From Modestobacter sp. Leaf380 (GTDB lineage: Bacteria > Actinomycetota > Actinomycetes > Mycobacteriales > Geodermatophilaceae), in NCBI RefSeq assembly GCF_001424485.1, contig NZ_LMQC01000019.1:310001-374000 (forward strand): a stretch of DNA of 64,000 bases. The letters are read 5' to 3'. A program made the position numbers and the translations under genes. Below, one piece after another: positions 16,238 to 21,599 of the stretch. Every line of letters starts with the position of its first letter. The stretch's first letter is position 1. The notes below the pieces were generated by a model. That model had not been told where the DNA came from. It saw only the letters and a program-made list of their open reading frames with translations, and ran no database searches.

Positions 16238-16627
16238 GTGCCCAGCTCGCCCCTCACCGTCCTCGTCGTCGACGACGAGCACGACCAGGCCACGCTGCTG
16301 TGCCACCACCTGCACCGCGCCGGCTGCCGGACCGAGCGGGCCGCCAGCGCCGAAGTGGCCCTCGCCCGCACGGCGTCGCCCGCGCCGGACCTGGTCGTCG
16401 TCGACCTGCTGCTGCCCGGCCTGGACGGCTGGGGCCTGGTCCGCGCGCTGCACGACCGCTGGCCCGGGACCCCGGTCGCCGTCTGCTCCGTGCTGGACCG
16501 CCGGGACTACCCCGCCTCGGCCCTCGCCCTCCCCAAGCCCTTCACCGGGGGCGACGTCCGGGCGCTGCTGGCCGGGCTGGCCGCGCCACCCCGGCCGGAC
16601 CGGCACGCCCGGGCGGTGACCCCGTGA
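16238..16627 (+). CDS. Single-domain response regulator (receiver only)
   Basis: 129 residues consisting of one receiver domain and a short basic tail. Acidic pocket VVDDEHD (11-14), phospho-acceptor Asp56 in DLVVVDLLLPG, and Lys100 in ALPKPF are all present, so it should be phosphorylatable. There is no output domain, as in CheY or Spo0F-like phosphotransfer proteins. The GTG at 16238 follows GGAG at 16225-16228. Its stop overlaps the kinase start by 4 bases. It is a candidate intermediate in a phosphorelay with the kinase and the receiver-HPt protein encoded at 19097-19723. Confidence 0.88.
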   Translation: MPSSPLTVLVVDDEHDQATLLCHHLHRAGCRTERAASAEVALARTASPAPDLVVVDLLLPGLDGWGLVRALHDRWPGTPVAVCSVLDRRDYPASALALPKPFTGGDVRALLAGLAAPPRPDRHARAVTP

Positions 16628-18402
16628 GGCCCGCCGCCGAGTGCGGCTTCCGCCGTCCCGACCTGGCCGGCGTCGCCGAGCGCAGCACCCCGTTCCTCGT
16701 GCTGTACGCCCTGAGCCTGCTGCTCCTGCTCACCCCCGAGGTGCAGGTCGGGTCCGGCGCCCTCGTCGTGCTGTCCGTCGGCACCGCGGTAGCCGCCCAG
16801 CTGGCGGCCTGGCTGGCCCCCTGGGACCGGTTGCCGACGGTCGTGCAGCTCGCCGTCCCGGTGCTGCAGCTGGCCGCCGTCGGCCCGCTGCGGCAGACCA
16901 CCGGGGGCGCCGCCTCGCTGTTCACCGCCCTGGTCATCCCGCCGGTCATCGCGATCGCCAGCGACCGGCGCCGGTTGTCGGTGCTCGTCGCGGTGGTCGG
17001 GACGGCGGGGGTGCTGCTGCTGCCGGCCGTGCTCACCGGCGCGGTCACCACCGTCGTCGACCTGGTCCGCGCCGTGGTCACCCCGGTCGCGCTCGGCGTG
17101 GCCGCGCTGACGGTCAACGAGCTGTCCCGGCGGCTGCGGGCCCGGCTGCAGACCGTCACCGAGCTGCAGGCCGAGCAGACCGCCCTGCTGGCCCAGGCCG
17201 AGGCCCGCACCGCCGAGCTGGAACTCCTCAGCCGCCGCCTCGCGGCCACCACCGAGACCATCACCAGCGTCATCGACGCCGTCACCCAGCACGCCGTCAT
17301 CGGCACCGACCCCGACGGGCTCGTCCGGGTGTGGAACCCCGGCGCCGAGCGGATGCTCGGCCTGCCACGGGCCGACGTCGTCCGGACGCGGTCGGTGCTG
17401 GACTTCCTGGAGCCGGCCGAGCTCGACCCCGCCGACCCGGTGGCGACCCTGGTCGCCCGCGCCGGTGACGAGCGGGCCCGGGACGCGACGCTGGTCCGTG
17501 CCGACGGGACCCGGCTGACCGCGACCCTGGCCGTCACCCCGCGACACGACAGCGCCGGGGCGCCGGCCGGGTGGAACGTGGTCGCCACCGACGTCAGCGC
17601 CGAGCGGTCCGAGGCGCGGCTCAAGGACGAGTTCGTGGGGCTGGTCTCGCACGAGCTGCGCACCCCGCTGAGCTCGATCCTGGGCTACCTGGAGCTGGTC
17701 GTGGACGACGAGGACACCCCGCTGGACCCCGGGCACCGGGCGCACCTGCTGATCGTGGAGCGCAACGCCCAGCGCCTGCTGCGGCTGGTCGGGGACCTGC
17801 TCCTCACCGCCCAGGTGGAGGCCGGCCGGTTCTCCCTCGACGTGCGCGAGGTCGACCTGCGGACGGTGGTGACCGCGGCCCGCGACACGGCCTGCCCCGC
17901 GGCGCTGACCGCCGGTGTGGAGCTGCTCGTCGAGCTGCCCGACGAGCCGCTGGTCGTCGCCGGCGACCCGGACCGGCTCGGCCAGGCCGTGGACAACCTG
18001 CTGGGCAACGCCGTCAAGTACACCCCCCGCGGTGGCCGGGTGACGGTCGGGCTGCACCGCGGGTGGGCCGACCCGGACGGGCTGGCCGGTGCCCCCGACG
18101 ACACGTGGCGCCGCGTGCCGGTCGAGGTCGCCCGGATCACCGTGCGGGACACCGGTCTGGGCATCCCCGCCGACGAGCAGGGCGAGCTGTTCAGCCGGTT
18201 CTTCCGCTCCTCGAACGCCCGCCGGCAGGGCATCGCCGGGGTCGGCCTCGGGCTCACCGTGACGCAGGCGATCGTCACCGCCCACGCCGGGCGGACCGAC
18301 CTGCGCAGCAGCTGCGGGGAGGGCACCACCGCCACCGTCAGCCTGCCGCTGGCCGTGCCGGTGCCGGCCGCCCCGGGGACCGTCGGGGCAGGTGCCCGGT
18401 GA
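16624..18402 (+). CDS. Membrane PAS-domain sensor histidine kinase
   Basis: 592 residues. An integral-membrane sensor region of about six helices (residues 15-165) is followed by a coiled coil (about 165-205), a PAS domain (about 210-325, VIDAVTQHAVIGTDPDGLVRVWNPGAERMLG), a HisKA domain with phospho-acceptor His343 in VSHELRTPLSSIL, and a HATPase with N box DNLLGNAVKYT and the G boxes RDTGLGIP and GVGLGLTVT. There is no large extracellular loop, so it probably senses the membrane or a small ligand via PAS. It is translationally coupled on both sides to the receiver-only protein and the OmpR-type regulator. Confidence 0.93.
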   Translation: MRPAAECGFRRPDLAGVAERSTPFLVLYALSLLLLLTPEVQVGSGALVVLSVGTAVAAQLAAWLAPWDRLPTVVQLAVPVLQLAAVGPLRQTTGGAASLFTALVIPPVIAIASDRRRLSVLVAVVGTAGVLLLPAVLTGAVTTVVDLVRAVVTPVALGVAALTVNELSRRLRARLQTVTELQAEQTALLAQAEARTAELELLSRRLAATTETITSVIDAVTQHAVIGTDPDGLVRVWNPGAERMLGLPRADVVRTRSVLDFLEPAELDPADPVATLVARAGDERARDATLVRADGTRLTATLAVTPRHDSAGAPAGWNVVATDVSAERSEARLKDEFVGLVSHELRTPLSSILGYLELVVDDEDTPLDPGHRAHLLIVERNAQRLLRLVGDLLLTAQVEAGRFSLDVREVDLRTVVTAARDTACPAALTAGVELLVELPDEPLVVAGDPDRLGQAVDNLLGNAVKYTPRGGRVTVGLHRGWADPDGLAGAPDDTWRRVPVEVARITVRDTGLGIPADEQGELFSRFFRSSNARRQGIAGVGLGLTVTQAIVTAHAGRTDLRSSCGEGTTATVSLPLAVPVPAAPGTVGAGAR

Positions 18403-19115
18403 GCCGGGGTTCGGTCCTCGTCGTGGAGGACACCGAGGAGATCCGGGTGCTGGTGACGACGGTGCTCGAGCGCGCCGGTCTCGGCGTGCGGGCGGTCGGC
18501 ACGGCCCGGGAGTGCCTGGCCGAGGTGGCCGCCGAGCCGCCGGACGTGATCGTGCTGGACCTGGGGCTGCCCGACGCCGACGGCACCGAGCTGTGCCGGG
18601 AGCTGCGCACGCTGACCCAGGCCTACGTGCTGATGCTCACCGCCCGTGCCGACGAGGTCGACGTGCTGGTCGGGCTGGCGGTGGGCGCCGACGGGTACAT
18701 GGCCAAGCCGTTCTCCCCGCGGGAGCTCACCGCCCGGGTGCAGACCTTCCTGCGCCGTCCGCACGTGGTGGCCGCGGCGGCCCCGGCCCCCGAGCAGGTG
18801 ACCGCCCGGGTGCCCGCGGCGACCGTGCTGGGCGACCTGGAGGTCGACGAGGGCACCCGCGAGGTGCGGGTCCACGGCGCCGACGTGCCGCTGACCCGCA
18901 CCGAGTTCGACCTGCTGCACGCCCTGGCCAGCCGGCCCGGGCGGGTGCTGCAGCGCGAGACGCTGCTGCGGGAGGTGTGGCAGAGCGAGTGGGAGGGCAA
19001 CCTGCGGCTGGTCGAGGCGCACATGTCCAACCTGCGCCGCAAGCTGGTGGCCGCCGGGATGCACCGGCCGGAGATCCGCACCGTGCGCGGGGTCGGCTAC
19101 CGGCTGGTCAGCTGA
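18399..19115 (+). CDS. OmpR/PhoB-family response regulator
   Basis: 238 residues: receiver with phospho-acceptor Asp54 (VIVLDLGLPDADG) and Lys103 (MAKPFSPREL), a short Ala/Pro linker (about 120-140), and a winged-helix effector with LTRTEFDLLHALASRPGRVLQRETLLREVW and RLVEAHMSNLRRKL ending in RTVRGVGYRLVS. The GTG start overlaps the kinase stop by four bases. Its 3' end overlaps the convergent receiver-HPt gene by 19 bases, a tight arrangement that links the two transcripts. Likely targets are its own operon and perhaps the TasA-like operon next door. Confidence 0.93.
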   Translation: MSRGSVLVVEDTEEIRVLVTTVLERAGLGVRAVGTARECLAEVAAEPPDVIVLDLGLPDADGTELCRELRTLTQAYVLMLTARADEVDVLVGLAVGADGYMAKPFSPRELTARVQTFLRRPHVVAAAAPAPEQVTARVPAATVLGDLEVDEGTREVRVHGADVPLTRTEFDLLHALASRPGRVLQRETLLREVWQSEWEGNLRLVEAHMSNLRRKLVAAGMHRPEIRTVRGVGYRLVS

Positions 19116-19723
19116 GCCAGCGCCGTCCCGTCGACCCGCCCGGCGCGCGCCTCCCGCTCCACCGTCCGGCACAGCACCGCGGTCTCCAGCCGGCCCAGCT
19201 GCGCGCTGGCCCCGGCCAGCGCGTGCGCGGCCGCGGCGAGCGCGGCGGTGTCCACCGCCCGGGCCGCCTGCCGCAGCGCACCCAACCGCTGGGGCAGCGC
19301 CCGGGCGTAGAGCGCGTCGAGCACGGCGCGGAGCTCGTCGTCGAGACCGTCGTCGGGCTGGTCGGCCCGCGGCACGTGCCCGCCGGCGATCCTCTGCAGG
19401 GCCGCGGCGTCCACCGGCTTGGCCAGCACCGCACGGGCGTCGAGGGCCACCGCCCGCTCGCGGACGGCGGCCGACGGGTCGCTGGTGACCACCAGGGCCG
19501 GGGTGTCCCGACCGTCCGCGCGCAGCTGGGCGAGCATCGTCAGCCCGTCCCCGTCGGCCATCCACACGTCGGTGACCACCAGGTCGGGGGTGTGCAGGTC
19601 GTGCAGCACCCGGGCCTGGACCGGCCCGTCGGCGACGAGCACGTGCCACCCGGCTGCCTCCAACGCCGCACGGACGGCGTGCCGGCAGCCGGCGTCGTCG
19701 TCCACGACCAGGGCGGTCAGCAC
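19097..19723 (-). CDS. Receiver-HPt fusion protein (phosphorelay component)
   Basis: 208 residues. The receiver has Asp9/Asp10, phospho-acceptor Asp52 (VVTDVWMADGDG) and Lys102 (VLAKPVD). After a linker the C-terminal 90 residues are helical and contain AAAHALAGASAQLGRLE with His157, matching the HPt histidine motif (H-x-L-x-G-x-S). It can take phosphate on Asp and carry it on His, but has no DNA-binding output. The GTG at 19723 lies inside the end of the upstream secreted-protein gene, making this the last gene of the TasA/SipW operon. It therefore physically joins that operon to the two-component cluster. Confidence 0.85.
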   Translation of the reverse strand: MLTALVVDDDAGCRHAVRAALEAAGWHVLVADGPVQARVLHDLHTPDLVVTDVWMADGDGLTMLAQLRADGRDTPALVVTSDPSAAVRERAVALDARAVLAKPVDAAALQRIAGGHVPRADQPDDGLDDELRAVLDALYARALPQRLGALRQAARAVDTAALAAAAHALAGASAQLGRLETAVLCRTVEREARAGRVDGTALAQLTSR

Positions 19724-20148
19724 CGGAACGTCACCGTCGCCGGCACAGCGGTCCAGCCGTAGTCGGTGCGGGCCACGATGCTGAACGCGTGGGTGGCGGT
19801 CTGCAGGGCCGGCTTCGTCGCCGCCCGCTGGGCCGAGGTCCCGGCGAGCGTCACCGGCGCCCGGGCCACGCCGTTGACCGTCTCGGTGACCACGTAGCCG
19901 GTGACCCGGGCGGTCGTGCTGGCCGTCCAGCTGATCCGGACCGTGTAGCTGGTGGTCAGGCTCAGCACGCACGCCGTCGACCCGGCGGTCGTGGGTGCGG
20001 TCGCCGGGGCGACCGTGGCGGTGCCGACCGTGAGCGGGGCCGCCGCCCGGGCGGCGAACGCGGCCGAGGCGGCGCTGGGCGAGGTCACCAGCACGGCACA
20101 GGCCAGCGCGGGGACCACCAGGGCGCGGCGCACCCAGCCCGTCCTCAC
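19717..20148 (-). CDS. Small secreted protein with one FN3-like domain
   Basis: 143 residues. The N-terminus VRTGWVRRALVVPALACAVLVTSPSAASAAFA is a classical Sec signal peptide with an AxA cleavage site. The mature part is one beta-rich domain (VRISWTASTTARVTGYVVTETVNG and HAFSIVARTDYGWTAVPATVTFRC) resembling the first FN3 unit of the large secreted protein encoded at 54889-59025, which has the same TRYG/TDYG strand. Two Cys residues may form a disulfide. The GTG start overlaps the signal-peptidase stop (GTGA) and its own end overlaps the receiver-HPt start, so the operon is tightly coupled. Confidence 0.75.
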   Translation of the reverse strand: MRTGWVRRALVVPALACAVLVTSPSAASAAFAARAAAPLTVGTATVAPATAPTTAGSTACVLSLTTSYTVRISWTASTTARVTGYVVTETVNGVARAPVTLAGTSAQRAATKPALQTATHAFSIVARTDYGWTAVPATVTFRC

Positions 20149-20777
20149 GCGTCCTGCTCGGCCCGGGTGGGGCGCCAGACCGTGAGCAGCACCCAGGCGG
20201 CCGCCAGGGCGGGGGCGCCCCACACCAGCACCTCGGTGAGCACCGGGGTGCGCAGCAGCTGGACGACGTGGCCGACCTCCGGGACCGTCGCCCGGACCTG
20301 CCAGGCGGTGTCGCCGGCGGCGAAGGTCGCCGTCCAGGGGTCGGCCGCGTCGTTGGCGTCGCCCCTGGTCTGGACCGTGACGGACCCGTCCGGTCCGACG
20401 TCGGCGCTGACCACCCGGTGGGTGACGACGCGGCGGTCGCCGACCGGGATGTGGTACGTGAGCACCATGCCGGGCTCGATGTCGGCGACCGGCAGCGCGG
20501 TGTCCACGACGACGTCCCCGGGGGCGATGCCCGGCGCCATGCTGGTGGTCAGCATCGTGACCGTGCGGTAGCCGAACACGTGCGGGCCGACGGCCAGCGC
20601 GGCGAAGGCGAGCACCGCGACGACCAGCGCCAGGTCGACCAGTCGGCGGGCCACCAGGCGGGCCATCCGGAGCGCCAGGGGCAGCGGGCGGGTCCCGACC
20701 CGGCCGCCGGCGCGGTGCGCCCCGGCGTCCACCGGGTGGAGGACACGGGACGGGCGGTGCGGCAGGACGGCGGTCAC
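20145..20777 (-). CDS. SipW/ER-type signal peptidase I (family S26B)
   Basis: 210 residues. One membrane helix (about 47-66) is followed by the catalytic Ser79 in TMLTTSMAPGIAPGDVV, His120 in RRVVTHRVV and the acidic GDAND (Asp140, Asp143). A His instead of Lys as general base marks the archaeal/eukaryotic/SipW class rather than ordinary LepB. A second helix (VLVWGAPALAAAWVLLTVW) closes the protein. In Bacillus SipW processes the biofilm fibre protein TasA; here the gene lies directly downstream of a TasA-like gene. The 69-base gap between the two contains a GGGAGGAGA ribosome-binding site. Confidence 0.9.
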   Translation of the reverse strand: MTAVLPHRPSRVLHPVDAGAHRAGGRVGTRPLPLALRMARLVARRLVDLALVVAVLAFAALAVGPHVFGYRTVTMLTTSMAPGIAPGDVVVDTALPVADIEPGMVLTYHIPVGDRRVVTHRVVSADVGPDGSVTVQTRGDANDAADPWTATFAAGDTAWQVRATVPEVGHVVQLLRTPVLTEVLVWGAPALAAAWVLLTVWRPTRAEQDA

Positions 20778-20846
20778 GGGGTCTCCTCCCTGTGGACGGC
20801 GGGGTGGGGGGCGGTGCAGCGGGCGCGGGCGGTGCGCCCGCCCCGG

Positions 20847-21488
20847 TCAGCGGGCGGTGCCGTTGCGCTGCGTGCCGACGAACTCGAAGGCGATGACCGA
20901 GGACTTGGTCTGGAAGGTGTTGTCCGCCGTCTGGGGCAGGGTCAGGGTCACGACCAGGTTCGACGTGCCACCGACCGGCAGCGTGGCGGGCACGGCGACC
21001 GCGGTGGCGGCGCCGATGACCGGGCGGGAGGCCAGCACCGCGGTGGTCGTGCCGGTGCAGGTGTAGGTGTAGGCGGGGGCGACGCCGGCCTCGGTCCAGG
21101 GCACCGAGCAGGCGTTGACCGACAGCTGCAGGCCGTTGGTCGCATCGGTGTTGAGCAGGCTCGAGGTCGTCGCGGTCGTGTTCAGCACGACCCCGGCCAG
21201 CGCCTGGTCACCGGTGTTGGACAGCGTGACCGCGCGGCTGATCGTGTCGCCGGGGACGATGTTCGCCGCAGTGGCCGAGAGCCGGTTGGCGGCCGTGCCG
21301 GTGGCGCCCAGCGCGATGGTGACGGTGCCGCTGTTCACCGTCTCGCTGGCGCTCGTGCTGCTGGTGAACGTGCCGAAGGTGCCCATGCCGGCGACGGCGG
21401 CCGCGACGCCGACGACGCCGAGGGAGACGACGACCTTGCGGCCGGTCGAGTGGACGGTGCGGGCGGCGCGGCGGTGGGTGGTGCTCAT
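20847..21488 (-). CDS. TasA/camelysin-like secreted protein (SipW substrate candidate)
   Basis: 213 residues. The signal region RKVVVSLGVVGVAAAVAGMGTFGTFTSSTSASETVNSGTVTIAL is the SipW-type pattern: a hydrophobic helix ending in GTFGTFTSSTSA, immediately followed by a strand carrying the N[S/A]GTV segment of TasA-like proteins. Further hallmarks are NIVPGDTISRAVTLSNTGDQAL and a Ser/Thr/Val-rich beta fold. The family forms surface fibres and biofilm matrix in Firmicutes. In this protein two Cys residues (NACSVPW, YTCTGT) flank a loop. It is the first gene of the operon, with GGAG about 9 bases before the ATG. Confidence 0.85.
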   Translation of the reverse strand: MSTTHRRAARTVHSTGRKVVVSLGVVGVAAAVAGMGTFGTFTSSTSASETVNSGTVTIALGATGTAANRLSATAANIVPGDTISRAVTLSNTGDQALAGVVLNTTATTSSLLNTDATNGLQLSVNACSVPWTEAGVAPAYTYTCTGTTTAVLASRPVIGAATAVAVPATLPVGGTSNLVVTLTLPQTADNTFQTKSSVIAFEFVGTQRNGTAR

Positions 21489-21557
21489 GGCGGGTGCTCC
21501 AGGGTCTGCTCCGGGGGCCGGTGGTCTCCGGCGTCAGGGAGGACACTGACGAGCGAC

Positions 21558-21599
21558 CCACAAGACGGACCGCTGCGTTCCGCAAGGTCTCCACAAGAC
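21558..21599. promoter_or_regulatory. Direct repeats upstream of the TasA-like gene
   Basis: CCACAAGAC occurs at 21558-21566 and 21591-21599, 33 bases apart (three helical turns), in the 124-base gap between the PucR-type gene and the start of the TasA-like gene. Tandem half-sites with this spacing are typical for OmpR-type regulators. This is a candidate only. Confidence 0.35.

Follow-up and report, generated by a model that had tools for sequence, protein, structure and literature searches.

The window analysed here, a 64,000-nucleotide stretch of the Modestobacter sp. Leaf380 genome (contig NZ_LMQC01000019.1, positions 310,001 to 374,000), carries a seven-gene cluster in which an operon for a TasA-like protein, a SipW-type signal peptidase, a small FN3-like protein and a receiver-HPt (histidine phosphotransfer) protein runs head-on into genes for a receiver-only protein, a PAS histidine kinase and an OmpR-type response regulator. 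With somewhat better than even confidence, we propose that this is a TasA-SipW fibre operon with its own two-component control, and that the HPt-like partner acts mainly as a non-phosphorylated binder or feedback adaptor. An earlier interpretation made from the letters alone (hereafter the sequence-only reading) had placed fibre assembly under a multistep phosphorelay passing through the protein encoded in the secretion operon. Our proposal is based on the recurrence of the gene set, on a candidate operator in front of tasA and on the variation of the HPt phospho-histidine among relatives.

Separate searches with SipW and with the receiver-HPt protein covered 112 genomes of the family Geodermatophilaceae, and 75 loci from 74 genomes, the window's included, were selected by a match to either and fetched; five more loci without fibre genes were fetched separately. 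Genes on the fetched loci were called by a codon-score caller, which may miss or mis-start genes, and all counts over relatives share ancestry. Expressed against all 112 searched genomes, the seven genes lie together within 15 kb in 45 (the window's counted), six genes do so in 52 when the receiver-only gene is optional, and tasA, sipW, receiver-HPt, regulator and kinase occur together in 56. Recurrence in 45 genomes rules out a chance neighbourhood of seven genes. The sequence-only reading had staked itself on the seven genes being conserved together in related genomes; this holds across the family and breaks down inside the window's own genus, where a receiver-HPt search of eight other genomes gave a best E of 7e-10, the level of general receivers.

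The receiver-HPt and regulator genes are convergent in all 65 loci having both, their 3' ends lying a median of 90 bases apart; the gaps reach 2,312 bases, and at some loci genes lie in between. The commonest order is unlike the window's, with receiver-only, kinase, tasA, sipW, FN3 and receiver-HPt genes on one strand and the regulator alone opposed. Of the 61 loci with both kinase and tasA, 59 have the two genes on the same strand, and the two exceptions fall within the window's genus. An HPt-like gene without tasA and sipW is present at ten loci, nine of which have the kinase and the regulator. These results show that the fibre and regulatory modules are linked yet separable. Upstream flanks are common to several genera, so some of the synteny reflects descent from a single locus.

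For dedicated control, the candidate operator before tasA is a stronger argument than gene order. When the regions upstream of tasA were compared at 66 loci, the word CTTGCGG was found in 64, against at most 21 for the best 7-mer in 20 shuffles. Pairs of units resembling this word (up to two mismatches) are concentrated at distances of 11, 22 and 33 bases (180, 134 and 87 pairs; the next value is 17), and at least two, three and four units stand in register in 65, 62 and 56 of the 66 upstream regions, against 20-shuffle means of 19.9, 0.45 and 0.0; the sole region without in-register units (L083) is cut by a contig end. The distance from operator to start codon (79-119 bases, mostly 98-112) is kept across genera along with the units, their spacing and a CAGAGT(C/T) motif, and the units are weaker in the window's genus than in other genera. 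By eye, 11-base repeats of related units (e.g. CTTGAGG) also lie upstream of several Nocardioides and Micrococcaceae tasA-like genes. OmpR/PhoB-type regulators have direct-repeat operators of about 11-base period at their targets. Direct repeats of this kind are present here, and co-occurrence links them to this regulator. A strict four-unit pattern, scanned with up to two mismatches in the 112 genomes, was found in 75, against one hit of the reversed control over all 112. A regulator ortholog (E 1e-70) is present in 84 genomes, and the operator occurs in 74 of these and in one of the 28 without the regulator (Fisher p 1.3e-16, a value that ignores the kinship of the genomes and is too small). 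In the window's own 4.76 Mb genome, a two-unit pattern has a single zero-mismatch match, which lies at tasA (the reversed control was compared at up to one mismatch). The dedicated control of the fibre genes claimed in the sequence-only reading thus gains a candidate operator of the regulator's type before tasA, with four units at 56 of 66 loci.

Two observations concern other promoters of the cluster. A conserved word, CGATCACC, stands in the regulator's own upstream region at 55 of 70 loci, and the words upstream of the receiver-only gene are GC-rich and of uncertain meaning.

Operator sites with up to one mismatch also lie outside the fetched clusters; there are at least 42, of which 40 were fetched. 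Eighteen of these 40 precede tasA-like genes scoring above 160 bits, 15 of them clearly apart from any regulator ortholog, and 13 precede other open reading frames (ORFs) that start 102-122 bases from the operator start and have N-termini that are hydrophobic by eye. The two-unit pattern revealed two further operator-linked tasA-like genes (L321 and L322, in genomes G023 and G024). A dedicated TasA-type fibre regulon, predicted to be run by the kinase-regulator pair, is supported.

Some of the operator-linked genes are of interest in themselves. Directly behind a tasA-type operator, L326, L328, L329, L332, L338, L340, L344 and L357 encode proteins of 46-219 amino acids of unknown family; the small operator-linked proteins have hydrophobic N-termini, come mostly from Blastococcus-type genomes and may be new matrix components. 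An apparent degenerate tasA-like remnant follows an intact operator at L318:3659-3925, in a genome without the fibre cassette.

The HPt-like partner tells a different story from the other signalling proteins. Pfam Hpt scores the window's domain at 27.3 bits (cut-off 24.6) and matches 22 of the 23 members of alignment A3 at E 0.01. The HPt alignment has 82 rows, the window and second copies included, and its phospho-histidine column was scored in 81. Histidine is present in 27 of these and the column has the highest entropy of the 84 HPt columns, while neighbouring columns are nearly fixed (L169 in 81/81, A170 in 80/81, S173 in 79/81 and G177 in 79/79); the 54 His-less rows have twelve different residues at this position. 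In their family alignments the other relay sites are fixed or nearly so, namely kinase His343 (66/66), the receiver-only Asp (56/56) and Lys (55/56), and Asp54 (70/70) and Lys103 (69/70) of the regulator. No copy bears the His at 41 of 68 loci, the receiver half is missing from several receiver-HPt copies, and at the five extra fibre-less loci the HPt-like copies are all without His. When presence of the His is mapped on a tree of 106 regulators, a minimum of seven changes is required, six of them forced by well-supported branches, and gains are not distinguishable from losses. Judged by the aligned residues, the phospho-histidine on which an HPt phosphorelay depends is not conserved across the family, though the window has it. 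Just behind the HPt glycine stands a second histidine (QLGH), at column 178 counted on the window's protein; 71 of 79 rows have it, and the window has Arg instead.

A true four-step relay of the Spo0 type could operate in the window's organism and in those Blastococcus-type genomes whose residues are preserved, with phosphate going from the kinase to the receiver-only protein, on to the HPt and finally to the OmpR-type regulator. We consider this unlikely, even though every relay residue is intact in the window, the receiver set and the His are both intact at 15 of 68 loci (the window among them), the receiver-only Asp never varies, the HPt homology is real, and two loci outside the family (L287 and L288) have a His-bearing HPt beside a kinase and a more distant relative of the regulator. 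Set against these points are the 41 loci without any His copy while kinase and regulator sites stay fixed, the repeated and mostly forced changes on the regulator tree, the copies without a receiver half and the Leu found in every one of the 18 outside-family domains aligned. A phosphorelay through the HPt domain is rejected as a general mechanism, with His in 27 of 81 rows, at the most variable column, and at least seven changes on the tree; what survives of the multistep relay in the sequence-only reading is the intact set of residues in the window.

Beyond the family, the HPt-like domain is found attached to the signal peptidase itself. Among the matches listed from 397 genomes of the order, those outside the family cover the receiver part only; a locus of Pseudonocardia bannensis (L252), found through SipW, has sipW, FN3, a receiver-HPt gene with His and a convergent regulator. 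At Micrococcaceae and Nocardioides-type loci, 15 SipW ORFs longer than 260 amino acids continue beyond the last membrane helix into a C-terminal HPt-like domain, which reaches 35.1 bits with Pfam Hpt in L264. All 18 aligned outside-family domains, 14 of which are fusions, have Leu at the His position, and in a profile comparison this Leu pairs with the His of the window (E 5.8e-7, probability 92). The 33 outside-family SipW loci comprise 15 with a fusion, four with a separate HPt-like ORF, one with a receiver-HPt gene and 13 with none; 19 of the 20 loci with an HPt-like domain have a related regulator on the opposite strand, against 0 of the 13 without, in a comparison where genomes are related and some loci short. 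In the Nocardioides-type family, 18 of 149 genomes match the HPt-like domain. At twelve loci (L275-L286) the domain is convergent with a regulator of the same clade in every case, directly adjacent in ten and with one gene between in L276 and L284; tasA and sipW lie beside it in two of the twelve.

The domain might instead be a decaying remnant, held by its place between fibre genes and regulator and functionless where the His is lost, which we regard as quite improbable. Such decay would fit the many His-less rows and their slightly lower conservation, the broken-up copies in L092 (75, 159 and 84 amino acids) and the absence of the gene from four fibre-bearing relatives in the window's genus. 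However, the 54 His-less rows keep a mean top-residue share of 0.71 in the rest of the domain, with several columns at 0.96-1.00 (0.80 in the 27 His rows); the gene is kept beside the regulator at nine of the ten loci without tasA and sipW, with the operator directly in front of it in at least seven (G038, G042, G048, G049, G051, G052 and G059); and elsewhere the domain is fused in frame to SipW.

The fibre assignment was approached through profiles and structure models. PF12389 scores the window's TasA-like protein at 35.5 bits (cut-off 22.5) and matches all 64 aligned members (E 1e-3). The NCBIfam TasA equivalog model matches 57 of the 64 at E 0.01, and the window protein, at 21 bits against a cut-off of 450, does not reach it; by these scores the protein is a TasA relative and not a TasA equivalog. 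A profile of the 64 members, compared with solved structures, has TasA (8aur/5of1) as its best match at E 4e-7. The structure model is mostly confident over residues ~65-205 and low and loose over the first 62, and Foldseek returned TasA entries with probabilities of 0.97-1.00. PF12389 bears the Pfam name Peptidase_M73, and its match in all 64 members might suggest a camelysin-type metalloprotease in place of a fibre subunit. This we hold to be very improbable: none of the 19 invariant columns of the 64 sequences is a His, Asp or Glu, although three Asp columns come close to invariance, TasA entries are the best profile matches among solved structures, and the loose N-terminal segment of the model would suit a donor strand. 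The protease reading was rejected on the composition of the invariant columns and the TasA profile matches. A TasA-SipW fibre cassette in an actinobacterium, as first supposed, is upheld as a prediction by the structure profile, the Foldseek entries and PF12389, and the TasA-like protein would be expected to form fibres.

The SipW-dependent signal model TIGR04088 matches nine of the 64 TasA-like members and TIGR04089 five (E 0.01), so that the case for these proteins as SipW substrates is made by gene linkage and the overall form of their N-termini. SipW-type peptidases are defined by a Ser-His active site and two membrane helices. The window's protein falls below the cut-offs of both NCBIfam SipW (47.6 bits, E 1.4e-12, cut-off 190) and the archaeal-type signal peptidase I (50.7 bits, E 1.7e-13, cut-off 51.85); in the family alignment Ser79 is present in 71/71 and His120, Asp140 and Asp146 in 72/72 sequences, and hydropathy places two membrane helices in stretches starting at residues 46 and 183. 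For the small FN3-like protein, profile scans with Pfam and NCBIfam gave no FN3 family match, and the fold alone supports FN3: the model has a mean predicted local distance difference test (pLDDT) score of 87.7 and four Foldseek FN3 matches (E 4e-4 to 1e-3, probability 1.00). Two Cys are invariant across 63 of its sequences.

Taking these results together, we propose the following mechanism. The PAS kinase would phosphorylate the OmpR-type regulator, as their families and gene linkage suggest; the regulator would bind the four CTTGCGG-like units at 11-base spacing before tasA, an operator defined by comparison, and would also act before further tasA-like and small genes elsewhere, presumably switching on the fibre regulon. 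The SipW of the operon would process the TasA-like subunits, which would then join by donor-strand exchange, as their Bacillus counterpart does. The HPt-like partner, encoded by the last gene of the operon, would come under the regulator's own control; since it lacks the HPt His in most relatives, it would serve mainly as a feedback adaptor that binds the regulator or the kinase. The partner may also pass phosphate in the window's organism, where the relay residues are intact. In Arthrobacter and Nocardioides, where such a domain is joined to SipW at its inner end, it could signal the state of the secretion machinery. A tentative extension, which we would not put above a minority possibility, is that the signal peptidase doubles as a signalling protein: a phosphate-dead HPt-like tail or partner would hold or release the regulator according to the state of secretion, and export would feed back on transcription of the regulon.

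Several observations weigh against this proposal. With regard to the partner, at least one His-bearing copy is present at 27 of 68 loci, the window's included, and phosphotransfer may persist in this sizeable minority; the His-less rows are slightly less conserved elsewhere too; Pfam Hpt passes in just one of three scanned fusions (L181 at 24.0 and L250 at 15.2 bits fail); and 10 of the 17 strong HPt-like matches in the Nocardioides-type family have no adjoining fibre genes. With regard to control, the four fetched fibre-gene loci of the window's genus that have no receiver-HPt gene come from genomes of which three have no nearby kinase and one (G082) no regulator ortholog. The strict operator is missing from ten of the 84 regulator-positive genomes (G000, which is the window's and has drifted units, G007, G041, G046, G047, G056, G077, G079, G083 and G097). 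In the window's own genome, allowing one mismatch gives five matches of the two-unit pattern against 33 of the reversed control, no excess, and at up to two mismatches the window alone has one match against 1.97 expected; the window's operator therefore rests on its position and on relatives. Three of the 18 outside tasA-like hits are perhaps parts of clusters (for L349 and L353 a regulator ortholog is no more than ~3 kb away, and L352 sits at the end of a contig), and of the 40 outside sites five have no ORF at the expected distance and four are cut by contig ends. Lastly, the Foldseek TasA entries have weak E values (4e-3 to 3e-2), and the search with the TasA-like model gave no match of any kind under E 1e-3.

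The features of the window are collected in Table 1. The seven-gene arrangement of the sequence-only reading agrees with the gene calls and domain hits, and so does the 19-base tail-to-tail overlap of the regulator and receiver-HPt genes (19097-19115). Its description of each gene as overlapping or abutting the next is slightly too strong: there are small overlaps of four bases (16624-16627), four (18399-18402), seven (19717-19723) and four (20145-20148), and a gap of 69 bases between tasA and sipW. Among the relay residues it listed, His343, Asp54, Asp52 and Asp56 are in place, whereas the HPt histidine is His167 and not His157; Asp56, counted from the 16238 start, is residue 69 of the 142-amino-acid gene call of the receiver-only protein. 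The regulator consists of a receiver and a winged helix, both above cut-off (Response_reg 91 bits, Trans_reg_C 88.5 bits).

Table 1. Genes and candidate control elements of the fibre cluster, in window positions.
Feature	Coordinates	Strand	Basis
Receiver-only protein (Rec)	16238..16627	+	Pfam Response_reg E 1.1e-14; Asp and Lys intact
PAS histidine kinase, hydrophobic N-terminal region, His343	16624..18402	+	PAS, HisKA and HATPase_c matches
OmpR-type response regulator, Asp54	18399..19115	+	Response_reg E 7e-26, Trans_reg_C E 3.1e-25
Receiver-HPt protein, 208 amino acids, Asp52 and His167 intact	19097..19723	-	Pfam Response_reg E 8.4e-20, Hpt E 4.4e-6
Small FN3-fold protein, N-terminal hydrophobic stretch, two invariant Cys	19717..20148	-	fold
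SipW-type signal peptidase, Ser79/His120, two membrane helices	20145..20777	-	profiles, conserved residues, hydropathy
TasA-like fibre subunit (predicted)	20847..21488	-	PF12389 (Peptidase_M73 E 1.1e-8)
Candidate operator, four units CTTGTGG/CTTGCGG/CAGCGGT/CTTGTGG, 11-base period	21558..21597	-	starts 109 nucleotides before the tasA ATG
Putative -10 region CAGTGTC (relatives mostly CAGAGT(C/T))	21542..21548	-	aligned promoters; inference

Other TasA/SipW-like loci were seen along the way. The window's own genome has a second, distant set on contig C25 (L137:8611-14228), with a TasA-like protein of 244 amino acids, a protein of 294 amino acids with a similar N-terminus, a SipW-like protein of 199 amino acids and a separate response regulator. 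Actinobacterial-type SipW loci also occur in records titled Vibrio cholerae strain 35D (L256) and Bacillus sp. AZ43 (L196, marked unverified); in both the title looks wrong or the assembly mixed.

With these results a TasA-type fibre system of soil- and stone-dwelling actinobacteria (Actinomycetota) gains a predicted regulator, operator and regulon. The repeated change of the phospho-histidine within an otherwise conserved domain offers a natural series on HPt-like proteins unable to carry phosphate, and the frequent loss of relay chemistry in the partner suggests a different coupling of fibre secretion to gene control. A literature search on TasA/SipW in actinobacteria and on pseudo-HPt proteins did not find this system; most subscription papers and all preprints lay outside its scope, and it is not proof of novelty.

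Among known systems, the Spo0 phosphorelay (KinA, Spo0F, Spo0B, Spo0A) shares four types of part with the cluster, namely a kinase, a receiver-only protein, a phosphotransfer protein and a DNA-binding regulator; here, in contrast, the HPt phospho-histidine is missing in most rows. The plant pseudo-HPt AHP6 is likewise an HPt-fold protein of a two-component setting that has no phospho-histidine; the present proteins differ in being bacterial and in lying beside, or fused to, a signal peptidase. The Caulobacter HmrABCX system is similar in that HPt-type proteins are tied to the choice of sessile life; unlike here, the available text of that report mentions no TasA or SipW, and HmrX is proposed to be phosphorylated on His (PMC11481889). 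The archaeal bundling pili AbpX, described as TasA-related donor-strand fibres (PMC9674648), give a weak profile match to the TasA-like family (E 0.07-0.19); that system is archaeal, and the comparison covers the fibre protein. In Bacillus subtilis, tapA-sipW-tasA likewise joins a TasA-family subunit and a dedicated SipW in one operon, and TasA polymerises via an N-terminal donor strand (PMC9674648). SipW is reported to be needed there for biofilm, with its peptidase activity dispensable on solid surfaces (PMC5817204, citing Terra et al. 2012); the SipW-HPt fusion, a possible physical link from a matrix signal peptidase to gene control, bears on this reported peptidase-independent role. The Bacillus operon is controlled by SinR (PMC9674648), whereas the operon described here includes an FN3-fold protein and is linked to an OmpR-type system and a candidate operator of 11-base repeats.

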